Shown one piece after another: positions 14,134 through 52,601 of a stretch of DNA of 56,584 nucleotides. The DNA is from a virus. The translations under genes and the position numbers were made by a program. Each line of letters opens with the position of its first letter. Within the stretch, counting starts at the first letter, position 1. The notes under the pieces were generated by a model. That model worked only from the letters and a program-made list of their open reading frames with translations, ran no database searches and had not been told where the DNA came from. The stretch spans positions 1 through 56,584 of IMG/VR virus record IMGVR_UViG_3300040801_004012. One strand, given 5' to 3'.

Positions 14134-16751
14134 CTTTCTCACTGCTTTGCCACAACTGGCGAGGCGCTGGTGCCGATGGCGGCACCGGGGGCATTCCCGA
14201 TCCCGGCGACACATCTCCTCTGGATCTGGTCCTCGACCGACAGGACCCGGACATCTGGATCCCGTTCGATGACGCGGGCACCCCAGCAACAGTAGTAGAC
14301 CTTGGCACCAAGCAGTACACGAATGCCGTGACAACGCCTGTCACCTTCGGTCGCGACCCGATATACAGCGGCGACTCCGACTCCAAATCCATGGAGACCG
14401 GGGCTGACGGTAACATTACAGTGCGGGACGCGCTGGACAACGACCACGTCCACTTTCTGGTCATGGACCTCGCAGCTGGCGACGGCACCTTCTACCAGTC
14501 TGGCAGCCTGACACTGGCCGTGTCAGAGGGTGAGATTACGGTCAACGGGGTCGCGACCGGGATCCTGTCCACGGTTAACTATCTGGTTGTTCAGGTATTC
14601 CCTGATGAGATCTTTGTGCTCGACCCGGAGACTGGCGAGGCCACTCTGACGATCGACGCCGACTCACCTACGTTCGTTGACGACATCATTGTCGGTGGCC
14701 GCGCTGGAGACGTGTTCGATCTCTATGCGCTGATCCCGAATGAGAACGCTGACGTTAACGAAATCGTGGACATCATCGGTCCTGACACAGTCACCCCGGA
14801 CCCTGACGCCGGCATCATTCCAGAGGACATTGACCCCGGCCCATCCACCCTTACTGGAGATATCACTCATAGAGGCAACGCGTTCGGCAACGGTATTTTT
14901 GACGTCACCAACGATGGAAGGATTCTGTACTTCTCTGGTGCTCAAGCGGCCAACCTTTATCGATCAGAAGACTACGGAGACACGTGGGAGAACCTGAATA
15001 CCGAGGGCGCCACGATAGATCACTACGGCGACACCACAGGCGTGATCGTTGGCAACGTGAGATATATGGGCAGCAGTACGTGGGTCTGCTCAGTAATGGA
15101 CTCCGGATCAGACCGAAGGGGAGCGTGGGCATACTCAAATAATGATGGAGACACGTGGTCTACGGTACAGTCGAGATTCTATTCGTATGCCATAGAGCCG
15201 GTCGACACAGATCGTGCGATACAGGTGGGACGAACAGCCGCCAGTGATGGCAATGGCATCGCTACCCTGTTCACTGGGGTAGGATCTGGGTCTCCGTCTG
15301 GTACGACTCTGGACACCAACGGCAACATATCCAACGGTAACTCCGTTCTCATTATGGGCAGCGGCAACTGGCAGCTGATCTATAGCTCTGAGCGACAGAT
15401 GATCAACAGCAGCACGCTGGCTGATATCGGGGTCGACATTAGCGGATCCGGAAAGGGCTCGACTCTTGCGTTTGGCAACGCGTCTGCGCCCGGGGACGCG
15501 TTCAACTGGGACATCGCCGGAATACTGCAGGAGGCGGACGGCAGCTATGCGAGCGGCGGCGCTCCATTCGTTGACGCAAATGGTGACCTGCAGCCAACTG
15601 TCGGCGAAGGCACGCGCAGAAGAAACGCCATGTTCCTTGGCGCCAACGATCATTACACGGTTCTGTATAGCGCGAGAGGGACTCAGGGAGATCGCGTATA
15701 CATAGCGCAGAACCCAACCGGCGGGCTGACTGACTGGCCTGTTTCCAGCGTGGACTTCCTAAATATTTCAGACCGTCAGGACGATCCTACAGTGGTGGGC
15801 GCGGCATACATGTTCACGCGATACCGCAGCAATGCGGCGCGGCACTTCAGCACTTACCTTGACGACAGCGGCCGCACGCAGCTGATTCGGTGGGAATACC
15901 CGCGCACAGACTTTGGGCCCACAGACGGCGACCCGGGCGGGCCTTCAGTTACGGATGGAGAGGTGCTGGCGCTGTTCAACTTCAATGACAGCTTTGTCAA
16001 TGAGGCGCGCGACGCCGTGGGCGAACTGTCTCCTACTGGAGTCATAACGAGCGACGCCAAGTTCGGATCTGGCGCGCTGTCAGTTCCTTACCGATCTTCG
16101 CAGGTGTGGTATCTCCCGAGCACGCACCCGGACTGGAGATCTGGCCCGCTGGATCTGGGGCTTGAAGACTGGTCCATCGAGGCATGGGTCAAGCCTCTCT
16201 GGTCCAATGGCTTCTGCTACCTGTGTAGCAATCAGGAATACGTGCAAGACGCCAATGGCCGCTGGAACCGATGGGGCGGCTTTACCATCAGTCTTTCTGG
16301 CGTCGCTGGCCGAGGCAAAGCCAGCATCTACTTCGGCGACTCATACGAGGCTGCTATCGCTGGCGAGTCTCTTGGCTTCCGAGATGGCAACGGCCTGCTG
16401 CTTGACGCGTCAGGGTTCACAGAGTGGAACCCGGCGGCCTACAACCACGTCAGGATCTGCCGGCATCAGGGCAGGATTTACATGTTCATCGGAGGCAAGA
16501 CTCCGGCCGCGGTGGTCGATTCTCTGCGCGGGAAGCTGGCCAGCAACAGCGGCATCTCCTCTGCTCCACTGTACCCTGTCGTGGATAACGAGAGCCCGAT
16601 GCGTATCGGCAGCTACCTCATTCAGTACGACGATTACACGAAGCTGGCGCGGTACGCTCCGCCCGTGCAGATCGACGGATTCCGGTTTATCCGTGGAGAC
16701 GCCGTGTCCCTCTATCAATTCAATCCACCAACGGGGCCTTACACAGAATGA
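14130..16751 (+). CDS. Tailspike / receptor-binding protein with BNR and LamG-like domains
   Basis: An 873-residue protein from the GTG that overlaps the previous stop; a longer upstream frame exists but lies over the fibre gene. The N-terminal part is Asp/Pro-rich beta. At least two BNR/Asp-box motifs are visible, RSEDYGDTW (about 279-287) and YSNNDGDTW (about 335-343), typical of sialidase-like beta-propellers. The last 260 residues (about 611-873) form a LamG/concanavalin-like jelly roll (LALFNFNDSF, SIEAWVKPLW, PMRIGSY). It probably binds, or trims, a surface glycan of the host. Confidence 0.78.
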   Translation: MTFSLLCHNWRGAGADGGTGGIPDPGDTSPLDLVLDRQDPDIWIPFDDAGTPATVVDLGTKQYTNAVTTPVTFGRDPIYSGDSDSKSMETGADGNITVRDALDNDHVHFLVMDLAAGDGTFYQSGSLTLAVSEGEITVNGVATGILSTVNYLVVQVFPDEIFVLDPETGEATLTIDADSPTFVDDIIVGGRAGDVFDLYALIPNENADVNEIVDIIGPDTVTPDPDAGIIPEDIDPGPSTLTGDITHRGNAFGNGIFDVTNDGRILYFSGAQAANLYRSEDYGDTWENLNTEGATIDHYGDTTGVIVGNVRYMGSSTWVCSVMDSGSDRRGAWAYSNNDGDTWSTVQSRFYSYAIEPVDTDRAIQVGRTAASDGNGIATLFTGVGSGSPSGTTLDTNGNISNGNSVLIMGSGNWQLIYSSERQMINSSTLADIGVDISGSGKGSTLAFGNASAPGDAFNWDIAGILQEADGSYASGGAPFVDANGDLQPTVGEGTRRRNAMFLGANDHYTVLYSARGTQGDRVYIAQNPTGGLTDWPVSSVDFLNISDRQDDPTVVGAAYMFTRYRSNAARHFSTYLDDSGRTQLIRWEYPRTDFGPTDGDPGGPSVTDGEVLALFNFNDSFVNEARDAVGELSPTGVITSDAKFGSGALSVPYRSSQVWYLPSTHPDWRSGPLDLGLEDWSIEAWVKPLWSNGFCYLCSNQEYVQDANGRWNRWGGFTISLSGVAGRGKASIYFGDSYEAAIAGESLGFRDGNGLLLDASGFTEWNPAAYNHVRICRHQGRIYMFIGGKTPAAVVDSLRGKLASNSGISSAPLYPVVDNESPMRIGSYLIQYDDYTKLARYAPPVQIDGFRFIRGDAVSLYQFNPPTGPYTE

Positions 16752-16758
16752 TGGCCTG

Positions 16759-16809
16759 ATTGGAGTTAACGTAATGCGAAAGCAGATACCATAGAAGCCT
16801 TACTCCAAT
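16759..16809. repeat. 8-bp inverted repeat in the gap before the lysis genes
   Basis: ATTGGAGT (16759-16766) and ACTCCAAT (16802-16809) are perfect inverted copies 35 bases apart, in the 76-base gap between the tailspike gene and the PAS-protein gene. No T run follows, so a terminator is doubtful. A weak stem, or a protein site, is possible. The gap also holds only a 6-codon frame, not called as a gene. Confidence 0.3.
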
Positions 16810-16827
16810 AGCGAATCAGCCATCGTA

Positions 16828-17487
16828 ATGAACACAATGAAGACGCCAGACATCCTCAAGGGCAACAGCTTTCTAGGCCACCTCGCCAACACCCTCATAA
16901 CCACGGCGGGCGTTGTCTTGGTCGGCTTTCTGACGCTGAAGGGAAACATCCAGCCAACCCAGATGATGATTCTGGCGGAGAGGGTTACGGCGCTGGAGCA
17001 GCGACTGGATGACAAGACGGCAGAGATCAATGAGCTGAATCGCGAGCTGCTTACCGTGCGCGCTGAGAACAGCATCATGAGGATTCAACTGGACAAAGGG
17101 TACTCATCGTCTCCACGCGGGATCTTGTTCGCGTACATGGACGCGCTGGACACTCCGGCTTGGTGCAAGGAATTCAGCGAGCCAAGATTTGCGATGATGC
17201 ACATCAACCCGTCCTACGAAACTTACTATGGCATCACCAAGGAGAGATATGTTGGCAACTCAGACTTCGACGTATTCCCTCCGAAGCTCGCTCAGGCATG
17301 GACAGAGAACGACAAAAAGGCATATCAAAGGCGTGGTTTTGTGCGCTTCGTCGAAACTGTAGAGACCCCCAAGGGTCAGGAGATAGATCTCGAGTTCTGG
17401 AAGTTTTACCTTAGGTTGCCTGACGGTGGTGAGCTGATTTGCGGCATACAGATTGGAGAGGTCCTTCACGGGCCAATACCGGGATGA
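16828..17487 (+). CDS. Membrane-anchored PAS-domain protein in the lysis cassette
   Basis: A 219-residue protein with three parts: a hydrophobic helix (about 15-37), a heptad-like coiled coil (about 50-85, RVTALEQRLDDKTAEINELN), and a C-terminal PAS-like domain (about 100-215). The domain shows AWCKEF, the 'INPSYETYYGITKERYVGNS' helix region, FPPKLAQAWTENDKKAY, and the closing LRLPDGGELICGIQIG strand pair. PAS domains bind small ligands or cofactors, or dimerise. The gene overlaps the holin-like gene (ATGA), so a part in sensing or timing lysis is inferred. A second ATG at 16837 is possible. Confidence 0.78.
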   Translation: MNTMKTPDILKGNSFLGHLANTLITTAGVVLVGFLTLKGNIQPTQMMILAERVTALEQRLDDKTAEINELNRELLTVRAENSIMRIQLDKGYSSSPRGILFAYMDALDTPAWCKEFSEPRFAMMHINPSYETYYGITKERYVGNSDFDVFPPKLAQAWTENDKKAYQRRGFVRFVETVETPKGQEIDLEFWKFYLRLPDGGELICGIQIGEVLHGPIPG

Positions 17488-17681
17488 GTTTCGTAGACAA
17501 GCATAAGATCGTAAGGCGGGGAGTGCTGGCGTGGGCGGCGTGGCTTATCAGTGCCACAGCAATGGCCTACTTCGAGCACATAGGTGAAATAAACGCATCA
17601 GACGCTGCAGTGATAACCGGCATCATCGGCATCCTCACTGTCGTCATAGGATTCCAGAAAAATGATACCGATGTTGGCTAG
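17484..17681 (+). CDS. Holin-like small membrane protein
   Basis: A 65-residue protein with a basic N-terminus (DKHKIVRR) and two hydrophobic helices (about 14-28 and 41-56) joined by a short turn, ending in a charged tail, as in class II holins. It overlaps the PAS gene (ATGA) and the i-spanin gene follows by overlap. The assignment depends on size, topology and neighbours. It would set the time of lysis by forming membrane lesions that release the endolysin. Confidence 0.72.
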   Translation: MSFVDKHKIVRRGVLAWAAWLISATAMAYFEHIGEINASDAAVITGIIGILTVVIGFQKNDTDVG

Positions 17682-18069
17682 TGGGGCGTTCGCGCTTCTT
17701 GGAAAATCTAAGGTTAAGGTGGCCATTGCCGCCACCATTGTTGTTGTTCTGTCTGCTGGGTGGGTTCATTACTCGAGCCTTCGCAGTTCTCTCAATGTCG
17801 CGCGCGCTGAGCTGCGCCTGCTTGAGGGACAGCTTACGCTGAAGTCTGAGCACGTAGAAAAGCTCAAGGCTGTGGTTCAACGGCAGAACGAGCAGGTCGC
17901 GGTTCTGGAAGAGCTGTCTGCGATACGGGAGGACAAGATCCTCGAGACTGAGAGTCGGCTGCAGGAAACGCGCGATGCCCTGCTGCAGGACATAGCCCAA
18001 CTTCGGATGGAGATAGGAACGACGTGTTCGGATGGAATAGCACTTATAAACCGGGAGCTTGGGCTCTAG
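17662..18069 (+). CDS. Rz: Inner-membrane spanin subunit (Rz-like)
   Basis: A 135-residue protein with an N-terminal hydrophobic helix (about 19-38) followed by a long periplasmic coiled coil (about 40-120, e.g. RAELRLLEGQLTLKSEHVEK). This is the i-spanin layout. Together with the o-spanin it would fuse inner and outer membranes in the last step of lysis of a Gram-negative host. It overlaps the holin gene and is overlapped out of frame by the o-spanin gene. Confidence 0.8.
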   Translation: MIPMLASGAFALLGKSKVKVAIAATIVVVLSAGWVHYSSLRSSLNVARAELRLLEGQLTLKSEHVEKLKAVVQRQNEQVAVLEELSAIREDKILETESRLQETRDALLQDIAQLRMEIGTTCSDGIALINRELGL

Positions 18070-18347
18070 CATGCTTGCTGGCAGCCGGGCTTTTCTTCCT
18101 GTGCGGATGTTCAACGCCCAGCACCATCATCGAAACCGTAGAGGTTCGGGTGCCGGTCATCGAGCCATGCCCTGTGTCCATTCCAGACACGGCGAGCTAT
18201 GCGGCCGAGAAGCTGTCTGTTGACGATACGGATTTTGAAAAGATACGCGCGCTGCTGATCGAGAGGCGCCAGCGCATAAGCACCGAGGAAGAGCTGCGCG
18301 CCCTGCTGTTGGCGTGCGTGATCCCATTAAACCCTTCCGATCGTTGA
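18024..18347 (+). CDS. Rz1: Outer-membrane spanin lipoprotein (Rz1-like)
   Basis: A 107-residue protein from a GTG start within the end of the Rz gene. A hydrophobic signal (about 11-28) ends in the lipobox LCGC, so the mature protein should start at the second Cys, be lipidated and sit in the outer membrane. The rest is partly Pro-rich and acidic with a C-terminal helix. The out-of-frame overlap with Rz is the standard spanin arrangement. Confidence 0.78.
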   Translation: MFGWNSTYKPGAWALACLLAAGLFFLCGCSTPSTIIETVEVRVPVIEPCPVSIPDTASYAAEKLSVDDTDFEKIRALLIERRQRISTEEELRALLLACVIPLNPSDR

Positions 18348-23283: not shown

Positions 23284-26200
23284 ATGGCAAGCTACTTCGA
23301 CCAGTTCCGGCCTGAAGCTGATTCAGATGAGACGGTAACTGGAAGCCAGCAGTCTGGCAGCTACTTCGATCAATTCAAGTCGGCAGAGGCCGCCCCCGAT
23401 CCCGAGAATGACAGCGGGATTCTCAGCGATGCAGCCATGGGTTTTGGCCGCGGCGCAAACCAGCTTCTCAGCGGGGTTGGAACGCTGTACGGTCTTGTCA
23501 CCGGCGACTACGATAATTTTGCAAAGCGGCAAGGCGACAGCGGCGTTGAGTATTTCAATGACCGCATGTCTGACGACTATGAGGCTGCCGCCCAGCGCCG
23601 GTCAAAGGCGATCGAAGAGGCTGATGGCGAGCTTGAAAAAGCAGGCGCATTCCTCTGGGAAACGGTTCGCGACCCAACCCTTCTCACCACCACTCTGACA
23701 GAACAGATCCCCATGTTGCTGGCGCCCGGTGGCGTCGGCATGGCTGGCGCGCGAGCTGGTGCCGCAGGGGCCCGGGCGCTGGGCCAGAGCGCAGCTGCTG
23801 CAGCAAAGACCGGAGGCAAGGTAGGTACAGGCGCTGGTGTTGCGGCCGGTGGTGCGCTGAACTCAGCTGACGCGGTAGACACTGCCCGCACGGAGCTTCT
23901 CAAGCTGCCGCCTGAAGTCTGGATGAAGAACCCAGACTATGCCGCAATGGTCAACGACAATGTGGACCCGGAGATCGCGAAGAACCAGATCGCGCAAGAG
24001 ATCTCTCGAGACACGGCGGCCACATCGTTCCTGTTGTCACTCGCCACACAGAAACTTGTCCCCGGGGGCCGCACGTTTGAGCGCGGCGCTGCGGGAGAGG
24101 CCACCGAGCTTACCGGAAACGCGGTTACCCGGGCCATCAAGGGTGGCGCTGGCGAGTCGCTACAGGAAGGACTCGAGGAATCCGTTGCATCCCAGCTGCC
24201 GGCAAACATCGGCATCAAGCGTGTTGATGAAACGCAAAGCCTTACCGAGGGTCTGGGTGAGTCATTCGCCGCCGGCGCTCTGGTGTCTGGCCCAATCGGC
24301 GCGATCACTGGTGCGACCAGCAAGGCGCAAGACGAAGCGATCAATGACATCACCGATGAAGAGGCGGCGGCCGAAGTTCGCGCGCTTCAGGAGGAGGCCA
24401 GAGCCAAGGCCACTCGAGAAGACGTCGCTGCGTCTCAGGCTGCTCTGGAAGTCGAGCAGGCCGGCGGAGATGCGCTGGACGCCACTGTTGCAGCGCAGGC
24501 CGCATACAACGCTGAGGCAGAAGCCCGGCAGATAGAGGAGCGCGAGCAGGCAGCTGCAGAGGCTGAGATTGAGCGACTGCGTACCCTTGGATCTGGCGAG
24601 CAGCTGCAGACCAACATGGACCCTGAGTTGGATCAGGAGGCTCAGGCGGCACGAGAAGACACCCCGCTGCAGCAATCCATCGATAGGGCAAGAGCTCGAG
24701 GCGACGAGCAGTCCACCATCCGCCTCGAAAACGCGCGACGCATGTTCGAGACAGCTGACCGATTCGAGAGAGAGGGGCGGGTTCAGCAGGCAGAAAACTT
24801 CAGGGCGCGTGCTCAAAAGATTGTCAGTGACGTCGATGGCAGCACCGGCGTTGTTCCACGTGTTGCGCAGGGCGAGCTTCAGGTTGCGGAGCAGGTTACC
24901 CCAACAGCGGCGCCTGAGCGCGAGCCTGTCACTATCGACCAGCGGCAGCCGGCGCTGCCACAGACTACGGCACCCGGCCAAGCGGCGATCAACGTGCCGC
25001 CAACCCCTGAGCAGCAGCAGCAGCGAGATGATGCCCGGCGGGCAGATGAGGTTGCGAGAGAGGGCGTAATTCCCCGTGGCGAGCCCGGCCGCATGCAGGC
25101 GCCAATCGTCGAGGAAGGCGAGGTCATTACCGATCGAGACTTCCCGCCTGTCGCCACAGAAGCTGAGGAAATCACCGATGCAAACTACACGATACCGCAA
25201 GATTCCGGGCGCGATCTCCCTTCCGGTCCTTCTCCTGTGGGCGCTGACCGGGCCAATACGGGCGCCGCAACTGATGTCGAGCCGGGCTATGAACGATTCA
25301 ATGAGCCCACTCTCGGCATTCCACGCCAGCAGATGCCGCAGATCAAGAGCGGCGATCGGTCTGCTCTAGTCCAATTCCTTGAGGCTCGAGGCGTCGGTAA
25401 CTTGCGTGAGACGCTGCCTGCCGCTGACCTCCTACCAACGCAGACTAACTACTCCCCGGAGAAGGTGGCCGCTCAGCGAGAGAACAAGAGCTCCCGCGCA
25501 GTCATCGTATCCCGTGAGGGCCGCATCATCGACGGCCATCACCAGTGGCTGGCGGCCAGAGAGGCCGGCGAAGACATCGACGTTATCCGTCTGGACACCA
25601 CGGCCGAAGACGCGCTATCTCTGGCGCTGGACTTCCCCAGCAGCACCACGGAATCGGCTGGCACGGATCTTGCGCCTGACGCTGAATCGACCGAAAACAC
25701 CGGTAATGTGACCGAGAATGACGGTAATGACGCCGTTGAAGAGGGTGGTGCGTCTTACTCGCGCGCGAACGATGAGGCCGGCGGATACAAGATTCGCAAG
25801 GAAAAGACCGGCAGCATCGCGATCATGGGCGACCCGGAAGAGATTCGCTCCAAGCTCCCAGATTACCTGAAGGGACGAAAGATCTCTGGCGGCCTCGCAT
25901 TTACTGCAGCCAACGCGCCGGCGGCGATGAACGCGCTGAGTGGAACAGGACGAACTCAGGGCCGCGCCGGCGAAGTGCGCCGACACGAGATACGCAACGG
26001 TAAGTATGTCGGCGCATCTGAGGCTTACAACACCCCGGGCAAAATTCGGAAGCTGCGCAAGTGGCTCAGAACCATGGCCGAAGAGGGTGAGCGCGGCCGC
26101 TACTGGTATGAGAAGTCTAGCCGAGGGATCCTTGAGTTCGTTGGCGGCGACGTGCGTGAAGCCAAGAAGCTGCTTGCGCTCATGTCGATCTACTCTCCTC

Positions 26201-29200
26201 AGGCGACGGTGGCAGCCAACACCAACTTCGCACTACGTGCATACGCGCAGCATCGCGCCGGCCAGCCCATCTCGATCAAGCAGGCGTCGATGGACAAGAA
26301 GGCCAACGAGGCAATGGCCGATCCCGAGGGGTTTGTTGCCCGCTGGAAGGGCGAGAAGACCGGCAACTTCTACCACAACCTGCTGGCCGAGATTGACTCC
26401 AGCATCGAGCAGGGCGCAACGATCGACATCTGGATGATGCGAGCTGGTGCCTATGATGGCAAGGACGCCCCCACCGCGGCGCAGTACGCGTTCATGGAGG
26501 TCGAGGTCAACCGCATCGCGCAGGATCTGGGATGGCCTCCTCATCAGGCTCAGGCCGCGATCTGGACCGGGATGAAGGCGCGCTGGGAAAATGCCGGAGT
26601 CAAGACTGACACAGAGTTCGCTTCTGAGAAAAAGGGCTACATCGAGTTCCGTAAAGACGGAGAGGTGGTCCCTAAGGGAACGAAGAAAGCTGAGCGCGTT
26701 GTGCTCGATAAGGGTAAGCACTTCCAGAACTGGAGGGAGCACGCCGAGAAGCACGACCCAACTGCCGAGGATACCTCGGTAGCTGCGTTCGATTTTGCTG
26801 ACGCTGTTCGCAACCACATGGGTATCGTTTCATGGGAGCCGATCCCGGGCGGCGACTCTGTGCTGCAGGACCTCAACGAAGACCAGCAGGCCGAGTTTGC
26901 ATCTGAGATCTACGACGCGCTTACGGATGATGCTGGAGTCGACATGCTGGCCCGTGAGCTTGGCCTGCTCGTCGATGACGGAATATTCGGGGCTGGTGCA
27001 TGGGAAGGTGAGTCAAACGTCAGCCGGCAGCAGAACGTCGTCATGGCGCCCGAGAAGGGATCGACCCTCGAGATAGCTCCGGACCAGAGGGCGCTCGTCG
27101 AAACATACGCCGCGTCTCTCGGTCTGCTCATGAAGCAAGACAGCGTTGGCTACCATCGCCCCTCATACAGATCCACCAAGAAAGACAGCAACGCGATTGA
27201 GTTCCGCGCCGGTCGCCCACTGACCAAAGAGGAGATGCTGTCTCTGGAGGCTGCGCTATCCGAGGAGATGGCGAACAGTCCTGCTCTGGTTGTGTCTGCT
27301 GAAGGCGTCCGAGTAATCAACTTCTCAGGCGACAACAACGCGTTCGCCGATGCGGCCGTGAGGGCGTATAATAACAGCTCTGCACCAGACGCCCCTGCGA
27401 CTCGATTCGCTACGGACGGGGATCTGGTCTCTAACGATTGGAGTACCGATACCGATGGGCAAGGTTACGAAAGTGTCATTCGCGAAGCCGGACGACCCGA
27501 TATACTCGAGTGGATTCGAGATGTTCTCGAGCCCCGCGTCCAGCCAGTCATCCAGCGATATGAGCAAATCGCAGAAGGACAACAAGACTCCGTCCAAGAG
27601 CGAGCGCCGCAATACCAGTCGGAAGTAGAGGGAGCCTATGGAGCAGAATCAGAAGAGCGCCCCGGAACTCGTCCAGAGCAAAGATCTGCCGGGAGGTCGG
27701 CGCTTAGAGATCTTCTCAGACGGTTCAACGCTACTGTTGAACGATCGGGAGGAGATACTGCGCAAGACGGACCCGGGGCCGAGCTACTTGCGAGCAGGCT
27801 CTCTGCCAACTTTGTTGCGAGCAAGCCAAATCGACTGATCGGCGAAACCGTCAATGGTCCAAAGGACCTTGCTGCGCTGGCTCAGGTTTATCGCGATCCA
27901 CGCTTTGAAACTCTGCGACTGGTGTTCACCAGCGGCGACACCGCCGTAGGCGAGACCGCGTTCAGCTCCCGCATGCCGGGGTCTGTAGAATTCCATGGCG
28001 GATTCGACTGGGAGGGAATGAAGTCTCGCATGCAGGCTCTGGGTGCTGACGGCTTCTACCTCCTGCACAACCACCCCAGCGGCAACTCCTCTCCGTCAGA
28101 CGCTGACGTCAAATTCACCCAGAAAGCTGCAGACAAGATCCCCGGGTTCCGCGGGCATGTAGTCATTGACTTCAATGAGTACAGCACGATCGACGCCGAC
28201 GGATCACAGAACACCATCTCAGAAGACATGGATGCGGAGGACTTCTACGCAAACCCAGAGATGGAAAGCGACCTTCTGGGACACAAGATCAGCGGCCTCC
28301 CTGCGCTTCGTGCTTACGCAAAAGCGTTCGCTGACCCAGACCGCGCGGTGTTCATCATCACCAACTCTCGCAACGAGGTGCAGATTGCGACGTCGATCTC
28401 TCCTGATACGCTGGCTGCGCTTGAGAGCCCCGGGATAAGCCAAGCCCGGGTATCCGCTATGCTTCGGGCAATGCTGCGAGAGGCTGGCGCCGGCGGACTT
28501 GCTTTCATGGTTATGCCGGAGAACGGCGTCAACGACAACCTCCTGAGCGACACCCACCCGATCCGCAGAATCGTTACGGATATTGTAGACGGAAGCGGTT
28601 CCTACTCCCTTGCCGCTGATGGGCCTCTTGCGCGTATTGATCGCCTCTTCTCTCGCAATGCTACGGTGGCAGAGGGCGACATGGACAGACTGATTGGCCT
28701 TCCGGATACGGTTGATGTCGATGGCCGTGCGGTCCCGTTCAAGAACTTTGCTCCTGCTGTTGACGCTGCCCGGAAGTACATGGAATCCAAGGGCATGGAG
28801 TACAACGAGCTCGAGCGATACGTGCCGCTGAACCGCAGCCTTGCGCCCAAGATCGCCAGCGCATTTGATGCAATGGAGCATCGGCCCAACGACCCGGAGG
28901 TCAAGGCTGCTTACGATGCCATGATCGAAGAGACGATGGACCAGTACCGCGCAATCCTCGACACAGGGCTCTCGGTCCACTTCATCAAGGGCGACGACCC
29001 CTACGGCAACCCGAGGAACGCTGTGCTCGATGTGATCGAAAACAACCAGTTCTTTGTGTTCCCAACCAGCGACGGCTTCGGCACCGACGAGGACTTTGAT
29101 GCCAGCGAGAACCCCCTGCTGCGAGAGACCGAGTTCAAGACCGAAGACGGAGACACGATGCTGGCGAACGACGTCTTCCGAGTGGTGCATGACTACTTTG

Positions 29201-32200
29201 GCCATGTGAAAAATGGGGTTGGCTTCCGCGCTCGAGGAGAGGAGAATGCATGGCAATCACATGCGTCGATGTACTCCCCTCTTGCACGTCGCGCAATGAC
29301 CGTGGAAACACGCGGACAAAACTCGTGGGTGAACTTCGGTCCTCACGGAGAATACAACAGGACTGCAGGTCCGGCAGATACAATATATGCTGACCAGAAG
29401 ATCGGACTGCTTCCAAACTGGGTATCAGAATATGGACGAGATTCAGAAAGAGATCGACGAGATGACCCCCGATATAAAGCGGGCCTTCAAGGCGCAATCG
29501 ATCGCGACGGGGTTGTCTCCCTCAGCCACTTCAGCCACGGGCCAGTCGAAGCTACAGACCCGGGGAGAGCCGGCACTGGGCTCGACCGGAAAGTCTCTGG
29601 CCGGCGGCAGCTCAGCCAAGGCACGTGGTTTGGCATCACAAAGGCAGAGGCTGCGCCGTACAAGAAAGAGTCAGGACTAGGGAGTCACGAGACCGAGTTC
29701 GTTCTCCCGGCAACATCTCTCTATCCGGCCAACGCAGATCCAGAAGGTCTGTGGGTTCGCGGTGACATCGAGGCCACCAACAAGAACCTCAAGGAAGCCG
29801 GGTTCTCCGGATGGTGGGCTAACAACAAGGCGCTTGGCAAAGTAGCTTTTGTCTTCGAGCCAGTTTATGCGAACCGTGAAATCTCCGTTCAGGAGCCGGG
29901 CGCAGAGTATCAGCCAGAGCAGCCGAAGGCCCGCCTGTACCAGAAGATTGTAAGGCTCGTCGAAGAGGCCAACATCCCGGGGCTCAAGCCCTCCAAGCGT
30001 AATCCAGAAGGCGGCGTGCTGGGAAGCCAGTGGCTGAACTACCTGCGCGCGCGTGGCGTCAAGCAGGAAGAGTGGCAATGGACTGGTATGCGCGACCTGC
30101 TGAACGAGAACAGCAAGGTTAGATTTACTCGTCAAGAAATGCGACTTCTTGCTGAGAGCAAATCGGTTGGAATTAAGACCATCGTTGCCGGCAACCAAGG
30201 TCAGAAGGCTGCTCCTGTAAACATCGAGATGCCCGACGGGATGATGGGCCCGTCAGACATATTGAAGTCGGACGACGAGAGGGCTTTGGACGGCGTGACG
30301 ATGGACCTCCTTGATAGCCTGCGCAGCAAGTTCGATGACGAGTCACGAGAAATCATCAACGAAGAATTTGTCAATAATTTCAGTGATGATGGCGAGATGG
30401 ACGCGCCCAACGCTCTGCCTTACTGGGAGACATCCCCGGGCGTCAGGATCATAGGGTCTGTCAATGCCGGCCAGTATTCCGTGTGGACGAAAGTCGAAGA
30501 CAGTTCTGAGGGGTTTGTATGGGAGCTGCGGGAACGGGAGATATACGGAATCAGCGAGGCGGCAGTCGTCGCTAGGGCGCTTACATCTGCCGGAGAAGAC
30601 GCCCAGCAAGAGGAAGCTCAGTGGGGCGAATTCGTCGAAGATGGCGAGTTCTCTGAATACCACGAACTGAAAATTCAGCTGCAGGACACCGCAGAACTAT
30701 TCTCGTATACGGCGCACTTCAATGAGCCCAACCTCCTTGGATTTGTCCGAGCAGACATGCGGCAAGAAAAGGGCCGTATTGGGGAGACCTACTTCATTGA
30801 AGAGATTCAGTCTGACTGGCACCAGCAAGGAAGACAGCGTGGCTACAGGTCGGACGACGACTCCTATGAGGAGTCTCGGATTGCAGCAAAGACTGCAGTT
30901 ACATACCAACGTGCAGCACGAGAGCTGAAGCAGAGAAGCGTATCTAAGTTCCACGACAGCGTTATTGAGGCCGCGGCGCTTGAAAAGATCAAGCGAGGAG
31001 AGGACTCAGACAAGGCGCGCGAGGACGCCGCGTGGTCGGTAGACGCGCTGATTGATGACAGGACGTTCAACCTTATTGAGGTTGATGACTCTAGCCCAGA
31101 GGCCGCCGAGAAGTCTGCTCTCGAGGAGCTGGATAGGGTTGCCAAGGCTCTCGAGATCGAAGTCACGCCAGATCTGGTATTTGGTGCTAAGGCGGTAGCT
31201 CAGGATACGGCAGAGTGGAAGCGAGCCTACCGAGAGCGCATGGATGCGTCGGAAGCGTTTTCTCGTGTATCCAACATGCCTCCTGACGCTCCGTTCAAGG
31301 ACGACGCGTGGATGACTCTGCTCGCAAAGCGGGCGCTTATCGAGGCTGTAAACCGGGGCGCCAGCCGTGTCGCGTGGCCGACAGGCAAGCAGATAGAGAA
31401 GCGCTGGTCCAGCGAGTTTGCTGAGCTCTATGATCAGACCTACAACAAGAAGCTCCCGGGCGTCATTCGCCGTCTGATAGGGTCAGAGCCAAAGCTCGTG
31501 CGGAGGCAAGAGTACGGCCCGTCGTCCTTTGGCGCAAAAGCAGGCGACCTGATGGCCTACAACGCTGAGTCACACAACTGGCGCACCATGGATGATCTCA
31601 TGGATTTCAACGGCCGCACGTTCGATGCATCAAATAGGCAGGATGCTATGGACGCAGTGCGAGAGTGGGCCGGTAGCCAGATTAGCCGAAGCTCTCGAGA
31701 CGCGGAAGGATGGTCGATCGTTACTGTCGAGGAATTGATAGATCAGCATTACTCGACAGAGAAGTGGGAGGCTGACATAACGCCAGCAACTCGCACCATG
31801 ATTGAAGAGTCGGGCTATTCCGTGTTCCGAGAGGGTGGCACTACAGCTGCAGGTATGACCGTCGAGGCTGTCGAGAAGGCTATTGGCGGGGCTCAGCCCG
31901 GAGTCAAGGTCGTTCAGACGATGGAAGACCTTCCCTCTCATATTAAGCTCCAGATGAAGCGTCAGGGGGTCACTGGAATCCGCGGGTACTACAACCGTGA
32001 ATCCCAGCAGGTCGTTCTTGTCGCCAGTTCCTTGAAGAACGCCAAGGATGCTCAGGTTACTCTGGTCCACGAGACCATCGGTCACCGCGGAATTGAGAAC
32101 GTGTTCGGCGAAAGCCTGAACGAATTCTATGCGATGGTGCGACAGTCTCGAAACGTGGATCCGGTGATCCGCGAGGCGTATGACTTTGTTGATAGGGCAT

Positions 32201-35200
32201 ACCCGGACGCCAGCGATTTTGTGAAGGCGGCAGAAGTGGTTGCCAAAATCTCCGAGTCGAATCCGAAGCACGGTCTCGTTCAGCGAGTCATGCAGTGGAT
32301 GCGTCAGGCGCTGCGAAACCTTGGAATCACGATACCGTTTTCCAATAACGATATTGTTGAGGCGCTGCGTCGCGCGCGCACCTTCGAGCAAGGGTATGGC
32401 AATCCCGGTCCGGCCACCTTTTTCTCTGTGGCAAACAGAAGCCCTGAGATGCAGGATCAGGTCGCTCGACTGGAGCGCGGTGAGATCACGAACGAAGAGT
32501 ATGCCGAAGAGGTTAAGCGGATACTCCCGGTCACTCCCCTCGACTCCGTACCAAGTCCGGCGACTCAGGCAGACATGGAGCGCGCCCTGCACTCTAACAA
32601 GCTGCCGAAGATGACAGCAAACCCAGAGTCAATACCGGACGGCACTCTTGTAGGTGCTCGACTCGACATCCCAGCTTACGACGATCACGGGGTGTGGGTT
32701 GTGACGCTGCACGATGGAGACGGAACGAAGACGGGCAAGCCGATCGCATATACGCCGACGGCAGTGCTGACCAACGTCGAGTTCACCACATCGCCGAAGG
32801 CTGCTCTTAACATTGCGAAGGGCAAGCCGAAGGCGACCATCGCGCGCATGCACGGAACGTACAAGGCTGCGCCGGTAGAGAACGCAAGGCGCCGGGCTCA
32901 GCTCGCCATGAAGAACCCTGCTTGGGTTCAGGTTGGAATGAACCCGGAGCGTCACAGCTTCTTCTACGACAAGGCCGACAATCGTCCGGTCGTGAGTGCC
33001 GAAGAGGTCATACAAGTTGGCGCTCTGGTTATGGCAAAGAATCCGGTGTACGGCGATCCAATGGATGAGCAGTTCAGGGTTCCAAAGTCTGACGTGTTCT
33101 TCAGCGCACAGGGGCCCGCATCCGCCGGCATTGATATCGAAGACGAAAGTTGGAAGGACGCCGCGATACGAAAAATGCAGGACAAGTTCCGGCGCCTGAA
33201 GATCGTGCAGGATTCCATCAAAGAACAGGGTGGCGTTGTTGACGAGAGCAACGACGCGTACCTCGCTGAAGAGCTGTTCCATGGCAAGGCCGAGAATGAC
33301 CTGCGCATCATGCGCGATAAGCACGTCGATCCGATGACCAAAAAGATGGCCGAGTACGGCATCAGTCAGGAGATGCTCGACGACTACCTGTATGCCATGC
33401 ACGCTCCTGAGCGCAACGCGCACATCGCGTCTATCAACGACCGTCTTCCCGACGGCGGTTCAGGCATGACGGATATCGAGGCTGGCAAGATACTGGCCAA
33501 GTTCCGTCAGGACGGCAGGCTGCAGCAGCTGGAAGAGGTTGCGAGCTTCGTGTACACGATGTTGCAGACCCAGAGGGATATGATCCGCAACGGTCAGCTG
33601 GAAGACGACGGCACTGTGTCTGCGTGGGAAGGCAAGTACGCCCACTACGTTCCGCTCAAGGGCTGGGCTGATGACACTAAGGATCAGGGTCGCCCCGGGA
33701 CAGGGCAAGGCTTTAGCATCCGCGGAAAAGAGTCGCGGCGCAGCGCCGGCCGCCGGTCTCTGGCCGCCAGCCCCAGCAGCTTCGCCATCACTGATCTCAC
33801 CGAGAAGATCATCCGCGTTCGGAAGAACGAGGTAGCTCTGACAATGCTGAAGCTGATCGAGGACAATCCTGACCCGGATCTGTGGGAGGTGTTCACACAA
33901 GAGAACCCGGACAAGAAAGAGGTGTTTGATTCTCGCACTGGCAAGGTAGAGATCAGACCTGTTCCCATGGACAACAACCCCGACTACTTCCAAGCGAAGC
34001 GTGACGGGAAAGCTGTGTACATGAAGATCAAGGATGAGAAGCTGATGCGGGCCATGAAGAACCTTGGCCCAGAAAGCATTGGCCCGGTCCTTAGAGCAAC
34101 CGCCGCATACAACCGGTTCCTGTCTTCGGTCAACACGAGCTACTCTCCTGAGTTCATGATCTCCAACATGCTGCGCGATGTGCAGACGGCGATCCTGAAC
34201 CTGCAGGCCGAGAAGTCTCTTGGCGACAAGGGTAAGCTGGACGGCAACGAGATCACTGCCGCCACGCTGAGAGACCTGCCCAACGCAATGCGCGGAATCT
34301 ATGCCAGCCTTCGTGGTAGCACTGCGAAAGGCAAGGGCGCCAAGGAGATGCAGAAGTGGTTTGAAGAGTTCCGCGCTGCAGGTGCAAAGACTGGCTACTT
34401 CGACATGAAAGATATCGACGGTCAGGCTGCTCACATTGAGAAGCTGGTTCGAATGGCCGACGGATCGGTGGGTGGTGCGGTTGAAGCGAGATGGGAAGAC
34501 ACCAAGCAGCTGGTCGAGGACATGAACCAGTCGGTGGAAAACGCAATCCGCCTGTCAGCATACGTGCAAGCTCGTCGAGCTGGGGTCAGCGAGAAGAAGG
34601 CTGCGTCGCTGGTCAAGAACATGACCGTGAACTTCAACCGCCGCGGCGAAGTGGGCACGCTGTTGAACTCGCTGTTCATGTTTTCGAACGCCAGTATTCA
34701 GGGCGTCTCAAACTTCGTCAGGACGATGGGCACGCTGAAGGGTGACGGCAAGCTGAATTACAGAAACCTGAACAACTCCCAGAAGATTGCCGTTGGTCTG
34801 GTCGCAGGAGCATACGCTCTGGCTATGGCCAACCGACTGCTTAGCGGCGAGGATGATGATGGCGAGAAGTGGTTCGACAAGGTTCCTGCCTACGAGCGAG
34901 AACGAAACATCATCATCATGAAGGCGCTATTCGGCGGACCTGATGACGGTAGCTACTGGAAGATCCCTCTGCCATACGGATATAACGTGTTCAGCGTCAT
35001 TGGGAACTCGCTCGAGGGCGCCGTAAGTGGAGCTCGACCGGTTGGCAGTCAGGTTGCGGAGACGGTACTGGCGATCGTTGGATCGTTCTCGCCCATCGGC
35101 TTCACTCAGGGCAGCACGGTCGAAAACACCATGATGAAGAACGCCACGCCCACGGCACTGAAGCCTCTGGTTGACCTCACAATGAACGAGAACTTCATGG

Positions 35201-35826
35201 GCAGCACGATCTACTCAGAGAACTTCCCGGGCGCAGTGCCAACCCCAGAGAGCCACATGGGCCGCCGCAGCACGCCGGCGCCTTACGGAATGCTGGCCAA
35301 GTGGGCCAACGAGTTCACTGGAGGATCGGAGTACCGGTCAGGCGCTATCGACGTGAACCCGGACAAGCTCGCCTACATGGTCGATTTCACTCTCGGATCC
35401 GCCGGCGTGTTCGCTCTCGACAAGGTTCCGGAGACCGTGATGGATGCGATCACCGGCACCGAGCGGCCTGCATCTCAGATTCCGTTTGTTCGCAGGGTGA
35501 CGGGTCAGGTCCGCGGGTATGGCGACACGGACAATTACTACAAGCGTCGTGATGAGGTTCGTCAGATAGTCGAGGAGATGAAGAGCATCCGAGACCCGGA
35601 TGAGCGCGCTGATTTTATGCGCAAGTTCGGTGACAAGTCTCGGCTTGGCGGTATTCTGAAAGCCACTGACAGGCAGCTCAAGATCCAGAGGCAGATCCGC
35701 GATAGGATCTATGCGGATGATTCACTGGGTCGTGCTGAGAAGAAAGCCAAGCTGAAGGAGGTCGAAGACAAGATGGAAACTATCGTCGATAGATTCCACG
35801 CCAAATACTTCGAAGCGGATAAGTGA
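23284..35826 (+). CDS. Giant polyvalent virion protein (4180 residues)
   Basis: One unbroken frame of 12.5 kb. It starts with two SYFDQF motifs (about 3-8 and 26-31), then a hydrophobic/Ala-rich region and a Glu/Gln/Ala coiled coil (about 350-480). Segments recognised by eye: ParB-like with IIDGHHQWLAAREAG (about 700-775); an RYWYEKSS / GATIDIWMMRAGAYD module (about 900-1115); a JAMM/RadC-like site HNHPSG-x3-PSDAD (about 1594-1606); a VHDYFGHVKNGVGFRARGEE module (about 1800-2045); an ADP-ribosyltransferase-like LSHFS ... GTGLDR (about 2080-2200); FIEEIQSDWH (about 2505); a zincin HETIGH (2929-2934); long helical C-terminal modules with a hydrophobic helix near 3835-3853. This is the architecture of phage 'polyvalent' proteins, probably ejected into the host. 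Individual domain calls are inference. Confidence 0.88.
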   Translation: MASYFDQFRPEADSDETVTGSQQSGSYFDQFKSAEAAPDPENDSGILSDAAMGFGRGANQLLSGVGTLYGLVTGDYDNFAKRQGDSGVEYFNDRMSDDYEAAAQRRSKAIEEADGELEKAGAFLWETVRDPTLLTTTLTEQIPMLLAPGGVGMAGARAGAAGARALGQSAAAAAKTGGKVGTGAGVAAGGALNSADAVDTARTELLKLPPEVWMKNPDYAAMVNDNVDPEIAKNQIAQEISRDTAATSFLLSLATQKLVPGGRTFERGAAGEATELTGNAVTRAIKGGAGESLQEGLEESVASQLPANIGIKRVDETQSLTEGLGESFAAGALVSGPIGAITGATSKAQDEAINDITDEEAAAEVRALQEEARAKATREDVAASQAALEVEQAGGDALDATVAAQAAYNAEAEARQIEEREQAAAEAEIERLRTLGSGEQLQTNMDPELDQEAQAAREDTPLQQSIDRARARGDEQSTIRLENARRMFETADRFEREGRVQQAENFRARAQKIVSDVDGSTGVVPRVAQGELQVAEQVTPTAAPEREPVTIDQRQPALPQTTAPGQAAINVPPTPEQQQQRDDARRADEVAREGVIPRGEPGRMQAPIVEEGEVITDRDFPPVATEAEEITDANYTIPQDSGRDLPSGPSPVGADRANTGAATDVEPGYERFNEPTLGIPRQQMPQIKSGDRSALVQFLEARGVGNLRETLPAADLLPTQTNYSPEKVAAQRENKSSRAVIVSREGRIIDGHHQWLAAREAGEDIDVIRLDTTAEDALSLALDFPSSTTESAGTDLAPDAESTENTGNVTENDGNDAVEEGGASYSRANDEAGGYKIRKEKTGSIAIMGDPEEIRSKLPDYLKGRKISGGLAFTAANAPAAMNALSGTGRTQGRAGEVRRHEIRNGKYVGASEAYNTPGKIRKLRKWLRTMAEEGERGRYWYEKSSRGILEFVGGDVREAKKLLALMSIYSPQATVAANTNFALRAYAQHRAGQPISIKQASMDKKANEAMADPEGFVARWKGEKTGNFYHNLLAEIDSSIEQGATIDIWMMRAGAYDGKDAPTAAQYAFMEVEVNRIAQDLGWPPHQAQAAIWTGMKARWENAGVKTDTEFASEKKGYIEFRKDGEVVPKGTKKAERVVLDKGKHFQNWREHAEKHDPTAEDTSVAAFDFADAVRNHMGIVSWEPIPGGDSVLQDLNEDQQAEFASEIYDALTDDAGVDMLARELGLLVDDGIFGAGAWEGESNVSRQQNVVMAPEKGSTLEIAPDQRALVETYAASLGLLMKQDSVGYHRPSYRSTKKDSNAIEFRAGRPLTKEEMLSLEAALSEEMANSPALVVSAEGVRVINFSGDNNAFADAAVRAYNNSSAPDAPATRFATDGDLVSNDWSTDTDGQGYESVIREAGRPDILEWIRDVLEPRVQPVIQRYEQIAEGQQDSVQERAPQYQSEVEGAYGAESEERPGTRPEQRSAGRSALRDLLRRFNATVERSGGDTAQDGPGAELLASRLSANFVASKPNRLIGETVNGPKDLAALAQVYRDPRFETLRLVFTSGDTAVGETAFSSRMPGSVEFHGGFDWEGMKSRMQALGADGFYLLHNHPSGNSSPSDADVKFTQKAADKIPGFRGHVVIDFNEYSTIDADGSQNTISEDMDAEDFYANPEMESDLLGHKISGLPALRAYAKAFADPDRAVFIITNSRNEVQIATSISPDTLAALESPGISQARVSAMLRAMLREAGAGGLAFMVMPENGVNDNLLSDTHPIRRIVTDIVDGSGSYSLAADGPLARIDRLFSRNATVAEGDMDRLIGLPDTVDVDGRAVPFKNFAPAVDAARKYMESKGMEYNELERYVPLNRSLAPKIASAFDAMEHRPNDPEVKAAYDAMIEETMDQYRAILDTGLSVHFIKGDDPYGNPRNAVLDVIENNQFFVFPTSDGFGTDEDFDASENPLLRETEFKTEDGDTMLANDVFRVVHDYFGHVKNGVGFRARGEENAWQSHASMYSPLARRAMTVETRGQNSWVNFGPHGEYNRTAGPADTIYADQKIGLLPNWVSEYGRDSERDRRDDPRYKAGLQGAIDRDGVVSLSHFSHGPVEATDPGRAGTGLDRKVSGRRQLSQGTWFGITKAEAAPYKKESGLGSHETEFVLPATSLYPANADPEGLWVRGDIEATNKNLKEAGFSGWWANNKALGKVAFVFEPVYANREISVQEPGAEYQPEQPKARLYQKIVRLVEEANIPGLKPSKRNPEGGVLGSQWLNYLRARGVKQEEWQWTGMRDLLNENSKVRFTRQEMRLLAESKSVGIKTIVAGNQGQKAAPVNIEMPDGMMGPSDILKSDDERALDGVTMDLLDSLRSKFDDESREIINEEFVNNFSDDGEMDAPNALPYWETSPGVRIIGSVNAGQYSVWTKVEDSSEGFVWELREREIYGISEAAVVARALTSAGEDAQQEEAQWGEFVEDGEFSEYHELKIQLQDTAELFSYTAHFNEPNLLGFVRADMRQEKGRIGETYFIEEIQSDWHQQGRQRGYRSDDDSYEESRIAAKTAVTYQRAARELKQRSVSKFHDSVIEAAALEKIKRGEDSDKAREDAAWSVDALIDDRTFNLIEVDDSSPEAAEKSALEELDRVAKALEIEVTPDLVFGAKAVAQDTAEWKRAYRERMDASEAFSRVSNMPPDAPFKDDAWMTLLAKRALIEAVNRGASRVAWPTGKQIEKRWSSEFAELYDQTYNKKLPGVIRRLIGSEPKLVRRQEYGPSSFGAKAGDLMAYNAESHNWRTMDDLMDFNGRTFDASNRQDAMDAVREWAGSQISRSSRDAEGWSIVTVEELIDQHYSTEKWEADITPATRTMIEESGYSVFREGGTTAAGMTVEAVEKAIGGAQPGVKVVQTMEDLPSHIKLQMKRQGVTGIRGYYNRESQQVVLVASSLKNAKDAQVTLVHETIGHRGIENVFGESLNEFYAMVRQSRNVDPVIREAYDFVDRAYPDASDFVKAAEVVAKISESNPKHGLVQRVMQWMRQALRNLGITIPFSNNDIVEALRRARTFEQGYGNPGPATFFSVANRSPEMQDQVARLERGEITNEEYAEEVKRILPVTPLDSVPSPATQADMERALHSNKLPKMTANPESIPDGTLVGARLDIPAYDDHGVWVVTLHDGDGTKTGKPIAYTPTAVLTNVEFTTSPKAALNIAKGKPKATIARMHGTYKAAPVENARRRAQLAMKNPAWVQVGMNPERHSFFYDKADNRPVVSAEEVIQVGALVMAKNPVYGDPMDEQFRVPKSDVFFSAQGPASAGIDIEDESWKDAAIRKMQDKFRRLKIVQDSIKEQGGVVDESNDAYLAEELFHGKAENDLRIMRDKHVDPMTKKMAEYGISQEMLDDYLYAMHAPERNAHIASINDRLPDGGSGMTDIEAGKILAKFRQDGRLQQLEEVASFVYTMLQTQRDMIRNGQLEDDGTVSAWEGKYAHYVPLKGWADDTKDQGRPGTGQGFSIRGKESRRSAGRRSLAASPSSFAITDLTEKIIRVRKNEVALTMLKLIEDNPDPDLWEVFTQENPDKKEVFDSRTGKVEIRPVPMDNNPDYFQAKRDGKAVYMKIKDEKLMRAMKNLGPESIGPVLRATAAYNRFLSSVNTSYSPEFMISNMLRDVQTAILNLQAEKSLGDKGKLDGNEITAATLRDLPNAMRGIYASLRGSTAKGKGAKEMQKWFEEFRAAGAKTGYFDMKDIDGQAAHIEKLVRMADGSVGGAVEARWEDTKQLVEDMNQSVENAIRLSAYVQARRAGVSEKKAASLVKNMTVNFNRRGEVGTLLNSLFMFSNASIQGVSNFVRTMGTLKGDGKLNYRNLNNSQKIAVGLVAGAYALAMANRLLSGEDDDGEKWFDKVPAYERERNIIIMKALFGGPDDGSYWKIPLPYGYNVFSVIGNSLEGAVSGARPVGSQVAETVLAIVGSFSPIGFTQGSTVENTMMKNATPTALKPLVDLTMNENFMGSTIYSENFPGAVPTPESHMGRRSTPAPYGMLAKWANEFTGGSEYRSGAIDVNPDKLAYMVDFTLGSAGVFALDKVPETVMDAITGTERPASQIPFVRRVTGQVRGYGDTDNYYKRRDEVRQIVEEMKSIRDPDERADFMRKFGDKSRLGGILKATDRQLKIQRQIRDRIYADDSLGRAEKKAKLKEVEDKMETIVDRFHAKYFEADK

Positions 35827-52130: not shown

Positions 52131-52601
52131 GTGCGGGATAATCCAGCGACCATATCCAGATCTGCAGGCCAAAAAGTGATAGATGAGGCGCTCAAAATTG
52201 CGCGGAGGCTGATCTCCCAGCACGAAGGCGTTCGCCGCTTCCCGTACCGCTGCACGGCGGACAAGCTGAGCATAGGCATCGGGCGGAATCTTGACGACCG
52301 CGGCCTGTCTATGTCAGAAATCGAATATCTTTTCGAAAACGACCTGCAGGAGGCAAGGCGTACAGCGCAAGCGTATACTTACTTCGCGGGGCTGAACGAG
52401 GCGCGACAGGCTGCCATTCTGGACATGGCATTCCAGCTAGGATCCCCAAGATTGGCCGGATTTGTGCGTATGCACAAAAACATGGAGGCTGGCGACTACG
52501 CCGCCGCGGCCGACGAATGTCTGGACTCCCGATATGCCAAGCAGGTGCCAGCCCGGGCGCAGCGCATAGCACAAATTATCAGATCAGGTGAGCACGAGTG
52601 A
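52131..52601 (+). CDS. Endolysin (T4-type lysozyme, GH24)
   Basis: A muramidase of up to 156 residues that cleaves the glycan backbone of peptidoglycan. The catalytic Glu is in LISQHEG; then come eight residues, a Cys (in YRCT) where T4 has Asp20, and SIGIGRN. The E-x8-(D/C) spacing is normal, as many phage lysozymes use Cys here. There is no signal or SAR segment, so release depends on the holin at 17484. The GTG at 52131 lacks a ribosome site; a GTG at 52176 (141 residues) is possible. It stands far from the other lysis genes. Confidence 0.88.
   Translation: MRDNPATISRSAGQKVIDEALKIARRLISQHEGVRRFPYRCTADKLSIGIGRNLDDRGLSMSEIEYLFENDLQEARRTAQAYTYFAGLNEARQAAILDMAFQLGSPRLAGFVRMHKNMEAGDYAAAADECLDSRYAKQVPARAQRIAQIIRSGEHE

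Follow-up and report, generated by a model that had tools for sequence, protein, structure and literature searches.

A membrane-tethered PAS-domain protein encoded in a phage lysis module and its relatives near the lysis genes of other phages

Known cases of phages that time lysis by a signal are the lysis inhibition of T4 and a few others, and the quorum sensing of VP882. A locus in the virus record IMGVR_UViG_3300040801_004012, the 56,584 nucleotides of which were analysed in full (the window), raises the question of whether a PAS-domain protein encoded directly in front of a holin-like gene takes part in lysis, and by which route. The interval given in the first-pass annotation, positions 16828-17681, holds two genes, the PAS gene, which stands as described and ends at position 17487, and a downstream 65-aa open reading frame (ORF) (Table 1).

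Table 1. Features of the PAS-lysis region and the endolysin gene (window coordinates).
Feature	Position	Strand	Basis and remarks
RNA hairpin between tail gene and PAS gene	16748..16826	+	fold -23 kcal/mol, z -2.9
TM-coiled-coil-PAS protein, 219 aa	16828..17487	+	ATG start; ORF, PAS_4 match, AF2 model, PDB matches
Predicted transmembrane helix, residues 19-37	16882..16938	+	hydropathy; model helix 14-37
Predicted coiled coil, residues 43-89	16954..17094	+	model helix 43-89; matches to PKG parallel coiled coils
PAS domain, residues 96-212	17113..17463	+	Pfam, Foldseek, AF2 model
Putative holin, 65 aa	17484..17681	+	basic N terminus, probably two membrane helices; start overlaps PAS stop
i-spanin-like (Rz-like), TM + coiled coil	17662..18069	+	phrog_89 Rz-like spanin, E 5e-4
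o-spanin-like lipoprotein, start nested in Rz-like gene	18024..18347	+	phrog_3580, E 4e-16; lipobox LCGC
Endolysin (phage lysozyme)	52131..52601	+	PF00959, E 2.7e-10

A membrane helix, a coiled coil and a PAS-like domain within one gene had been proposed from the letters alone, and our analyses bear out this architecture. Hydropathy reveals a single N-terminal helix (residues about 15-37), Pfam detects PAS_4 (PF08448) at E 4.4e-7 with 30.5 bits compared to a gathering score of 23.1, and the AF2 model, built on an alignment with nine sequences, places helices at 14-37 and 43-89, the latter long, ahead of a PAS fold at 96-212. The pLDDT in the PAS domain is about 86-94 and its mean is similar across five models, and a Foldseek search of the PDB returned hundreds of matches, the best of which are PAS domains (E about 2e-7). 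Structure prediction and profile search, the two checks proposed for the C-terminal fold, thus agree, the first of the outcomes named there as refuting the proposal did not occur, and the PAS identity of this domain is correct and not due to chance. Sequence and model show no heme-type His on the F-alpha helix (152-168) and no LOV-type adduct Cys in the helical part, both Cys residues of the PAS domain (113 and 203) being located in strands; a LOV or heme sensor was rejected on these residues. Pfam finds no HTH domain, and the protein ends directly after the PAS domain. We found no close relatives of the protein in the viral contig, genome contig and phage sets; one weak match came from a plasmid. 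PAS_4 exceeds the cut-off in 0 of 19 terminase-related viral records.

The PAS gene starts 76 bases 3' of the stop of an 882-aa ORF in the tail-gene region, which has weak BNR/sortilin-type matches, and its own stop (17485-17487) overlaps the ATG of the 65-aa ORF (17484-17486) in an ATGA arrangement, as had been noted for a 'holin-like' start. We infer from size, hydropathy and place only that this ORF encodes a holin: its basic N terminus (KHKIVRR) and its one strong and one weaker membrane helix would fit a small holin with both ends inside, and neither family profiles nor tblastn identified homologues. The role of the i-spanin, that of a TM-coiled-coil gene with a nested o-spanin lipoprotein, is filled by the next two genes and not by the PAS gene. 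The o-spanin-like product is 45% identical over 69 residues to the annotated o-spanin of Pseudomonas phage Orisa01 (tblastn 1e-7), and relatives of the i-spanin-like gene were not found in the viral contig set. The endolysin, which by hydropathy carries no N-terminal membrane or SAR segment, is encoded about 34 kb from this cassette and is directly followed by a 994-aa ORF (together 52131-55582), so that the lysis genes are split. Despite this distance, the PAS-holin-spanin block is a lysis module. In G001, the nearest relative identified (66% terminase identity), a tail-region gene directly precedes the homologue of the window's 876-aa protein and the PAS-lysis block is absent between them, indicating that the block behaves as a module. 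Elsewhere in the window, a single 4180-aa ORF (23284-35826) lies beside virion-protein genes, with only patchy matches in relatives.

Upstream of the PAS gene, the start of which shows no clear ribosome-binding site, the RNA hairpin encloses a 6-codon ORF (MRKQIP, 16774-16794) with its own GGAG. This long hairpin might act on translation of the lysis operon, either coupling or limiting it; an Rfam search around it gave nothing credible.

The link to lysis had been guessed from one genome, and relatives from other phages now support it. These relatives, all distant phage proteins, were picked by tblastn similarity, and gene positions played no part in their choice; fold matches to the window model include the proteins of phi10:1/phi19:1 and phi18:3. 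In the crAss-like Cellulophaga phage phi14:2, the PAS gene directly precedes the endolysin gene and overlaps it, and in an IMG/VR contig (L109) it overlaps a GH108 endolysin gene, with a lipoprotein gene two genes on. In Chryseobacterium phage MA9V-2, the PAS gene comes two genes behind GH108, and a TM-coiled-coil gene and a lipoprotein gene follow it. It lies two genes before the endolysin gene in phi13:2 and phi18:3, adjoining a five-helix protein gene in phi13:2, and in phi10:1 it overlaps a multi-helix gene (weak holin match), with the endolysin gene three genes further. In L102, the PAS gene adjoins DUF5675. Homologous TM-coiled-coil-PAS genes are therefore located at most three genes from endolysin genes in five other phage lineages. 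Using random gene placement in five genomes, 0 of 1e6 simulations gave genes as close, and 1 of 1e6 did when Brevundimonas was added, with the qualification that the phi10:1 and phi13:2 PAS genes are probably related and the lineages therefore not fully independent. The simulation assumed an estimated 70 genes for the L109 contig, in which 92 ORFs were counted later, a difference that would only strengthen the test.

The phi14:2 gene (g078) is annotated as 'PAS fold protein'; its product has the same TM-coiled-coil-PAS architecture as the window protein, to which it is 22% identical, and neither its record nor the papers found describe a role in lysis. In the lysis region of MA9V-2, the lipoprotein (L004:6900-7532) encoded beside the TM-coiled-coil gene has an extra C-terminal membrane helix and is perhaps a one-piece spanin. 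A lysis neighbour of the PAS gene is not visible in the L103/L104/L106 group and in L108, and prophage copies of the Bacteroidota form of the protein were not found. Seven Brevundimonas phages encode a related PAS protein lacking the transmembrane helix. In giant phages of this group (L002:5887-6802, L006:5935-6865), the soluble PAS gene overlaps a separate gene for a coiled coil and a C-terminal membrane helix, a pair that holds the parts of the window protein divided over two genes. The annotated lysis genes of the Brevundimonas phage Kikimora are 38 kb from the PAS gene, and we rejected the Brevundimonas PAS genes as lysis-linked for this reason.

Taken together, we lean towards the view that the product of the window gene is part of the lysis module, a cytoplasmic PAS protein tethered to the membrane, and that it sets the inner-membrane step of lysis or regulates it. 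In the model that we propose, a short N-terminal tail would lead into a single inner-membrane helix, followed by a parallel coiled coil, through which the protein probably dimerises, and by the PAS domain on the cytoplasmic side; the protein would be co-made with the 65-aa holin and the spanins, and the timing of the holin step would be set at the inner membrane. A change in the PAS dimer, depending on whether a ligand is bound, would be relayed by the coiled coil as far as the membrane helix, altering its contact with the holin, with lysis either delayed or triggered as the outcome. In relatives lacking a recognisable holin, the change would instead alter the assembly of the PAS protein itself.

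The proposed orientation derives from the relatives. In eight of them (alignment A4), the N-terminal tail is very short and holds 0-1 basic residues, and 2-3 basic residues (..RKQ) follow just inside, a charge pattern that indicates an N-out/C-in topology and hence a cytoplasmic PAS domain. With two basic residues on either side of the helix, the window protein is ambiguous by charge alone; it lacks the Arg-Lys pair that the relatives have at the membrane junction, and its PAS domain is taken to be C-in and cytoplasmic by homology to them. The plan of these relatives, with one helix between a few periplasmic residues and a basic pair that leads into a cytoplasmic tail, recurs in gp25 (releasin) of phage Mu, a membrane-tethered cytoplasmic protein that Mu, which has no holin, uses instead (PMC9239132). 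Like gp25, the window protein is a small lysis-region protein with one N-terminal helix; unlike it, it carries a PAS domain.

This precedent suggests a different assignment of roles, in which the TM-coiled-coil-PAS protein would itself be a single-helix holin or a releasin-like helper for endolysin crossing, the 65-aa ORF an accessory protein or antiholin, and the PAS domain a regulatory or dimerising head. In addition to the architecture, profile scores point in this direction: when six releasins were compared by profile with the TM-coiled-coil halves, P was 3e-4 for the relatives, 9e-4 for MA9V-2 and 0.0066 for the window protein, compared to P over 0.3 for four control sets including Rz proteins, albeit with HH probabilities of only 2-17%. 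The N-terminal half of the window protein also reaches phrog_736, to which Mu gp25 is assigned, at E 0.07. The cut-off of DUF2730 (PF10805), however, was not reached; the best relative was L103 (E 0.0064, 17.0 vs 24.9 bits), and the window protein gave no match. We therefore regard the weak, colinear resemblance of the TM-coiled-coil half to Mu releasin as a lead and not as membership. The same half was tried as a BhlA or XhlA holin and rejected, as Pfam gave no such match. Furthermore, releasin acts on SAR endolysins, and no SAR segment was seen in the endolysins here, including those of phi14:2 and L109; at about 34 kb from the endolysin gene, the window gene also lies well outside the five-gene distance used for releasins, within which the genes of the other lineages fall.

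The neighbouring genes bear on this assignment in both directions. Multi-helix proteins are encoded beside the PAS gene in the window and in the Cellulophaga phages phi10:1 and phi13:2, which argues against it, whereas in phi14:2 and L109 a separate holin is not evident near the endolysin gene, and, spanin-like proteins and small or doubtful ORFs elsewhere aside, no membrane protein other than the PAS protein is encoded in the late or lysis region. Because no other candidate lies near the non-SAR endolysin in these two phages, the PAS protein itself may do the holin's job there, and the 'antiholin with a sensory head' raised in the first-pass annotation becomes one of several options, beside a holin or a releasin-like helper. 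For the window protein itself, we consider a holin or releasin-like function rather doubtful, and we retain the reading of a regulator of the holin step.

Within this preferred reading, the PAS domain would sense a ligand, and a possible one is suggested by VqmA. A search of the PDB with the family PAS profile identified VqmA as the only group significant by sequence (E 6e-6); with the window PAS domain alone as query, VqmA was not found. The autoinducer DPO is the ligand of VqmA; vibriophage VP882 carries a VqmA of its own, by which it starts lysis at high cell density (PMC8284805). Residues F67, F99 and K101, which are critical for DPO (PMC10426928), align with W158, F190 and K192 of the window PAS domain at predicted contact places. 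In all 14 phage sequences, K at place 101 and Y at place 36 are invariant and place 67 carries an aromatic residue; F at place 99 is confined to the window protein, most relatives having V there. The combination of Y, an aromatic residue and K occurred in 0/25 control PAS_4 domains, all of which derive from one cyanobacterial plasmid, and the alignment of these places was seeded with the phage sequences. Many kinase PAS domains of one class carry a 'KxP' lysine. Owing to the miss with the window domain alone, the phage-seeded alignment, the controls from one replicon and this common lysine, we put forward a VqmA-like ligand for the phage PAS family as a hypothesis only.

Conservation of a PAS pocket is no proof of ligand binding, and some PAS domains only dimerise. 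The PAS domain might accordingly sense nothing and serve the lysis protein only for dimerisation or as a scaffold, in line with the F-alpha helix and helical part devoid of heme-type His and LOV-type Cys; given that Y, an aromatic residue and K at the VqmA contact places are kept in 14/14 phage sequences versus 0/25 controls, we judge this to be unlikely. Least probable is a membrane signalling protein that lies beside lysis genes by chance and acts on host signalling, since the Brevundimonas, L103-group and L108 genes, which are devoid of lysis neighbours, are set against lysis linkage in the window and five other lineages and against translational overlap with holin or endolysin genes.

The presence of similar proteins near lysis genes in several unrelated phages suggests that phages may sense an intracellular cue for the timing of lysis. 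If so, a PAS head on a lysis protein would let cell state act on lysis directly and post-translationally, both in unrelated Bacteroidota phages and in the window's own lineage. More broadly, and as a tentative proposal that we hold possible at best, these proteins could form a widespread, so far undescribed class that acts in lysis: anchored in the inner membrane next to the holin, a VqmA-like PAS domain would read a small host metabolite or autoinducer and set the time of lysis directly, without transcription. Our literature search turned up no paper that names a PAS protein as part of a phage lysis cassette; the present analysis provides named genes for testing, including g078 of the cultured phage phi14:2.

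Such a mode of action would differ from the signal-dependent systems to which it is closest. VqmA is a soluble PAS-HTH transcription factor, whereas the window protein is membrane-tethered and has no HTH domain. The T4 antiholin RI is likewise a phage protein and links lysis timing to a signal, as we propose for the window protein; RI is periplasmic (PMC8385771), whereas the PAS domain of the window protein is predicted to be cytoplasmic.
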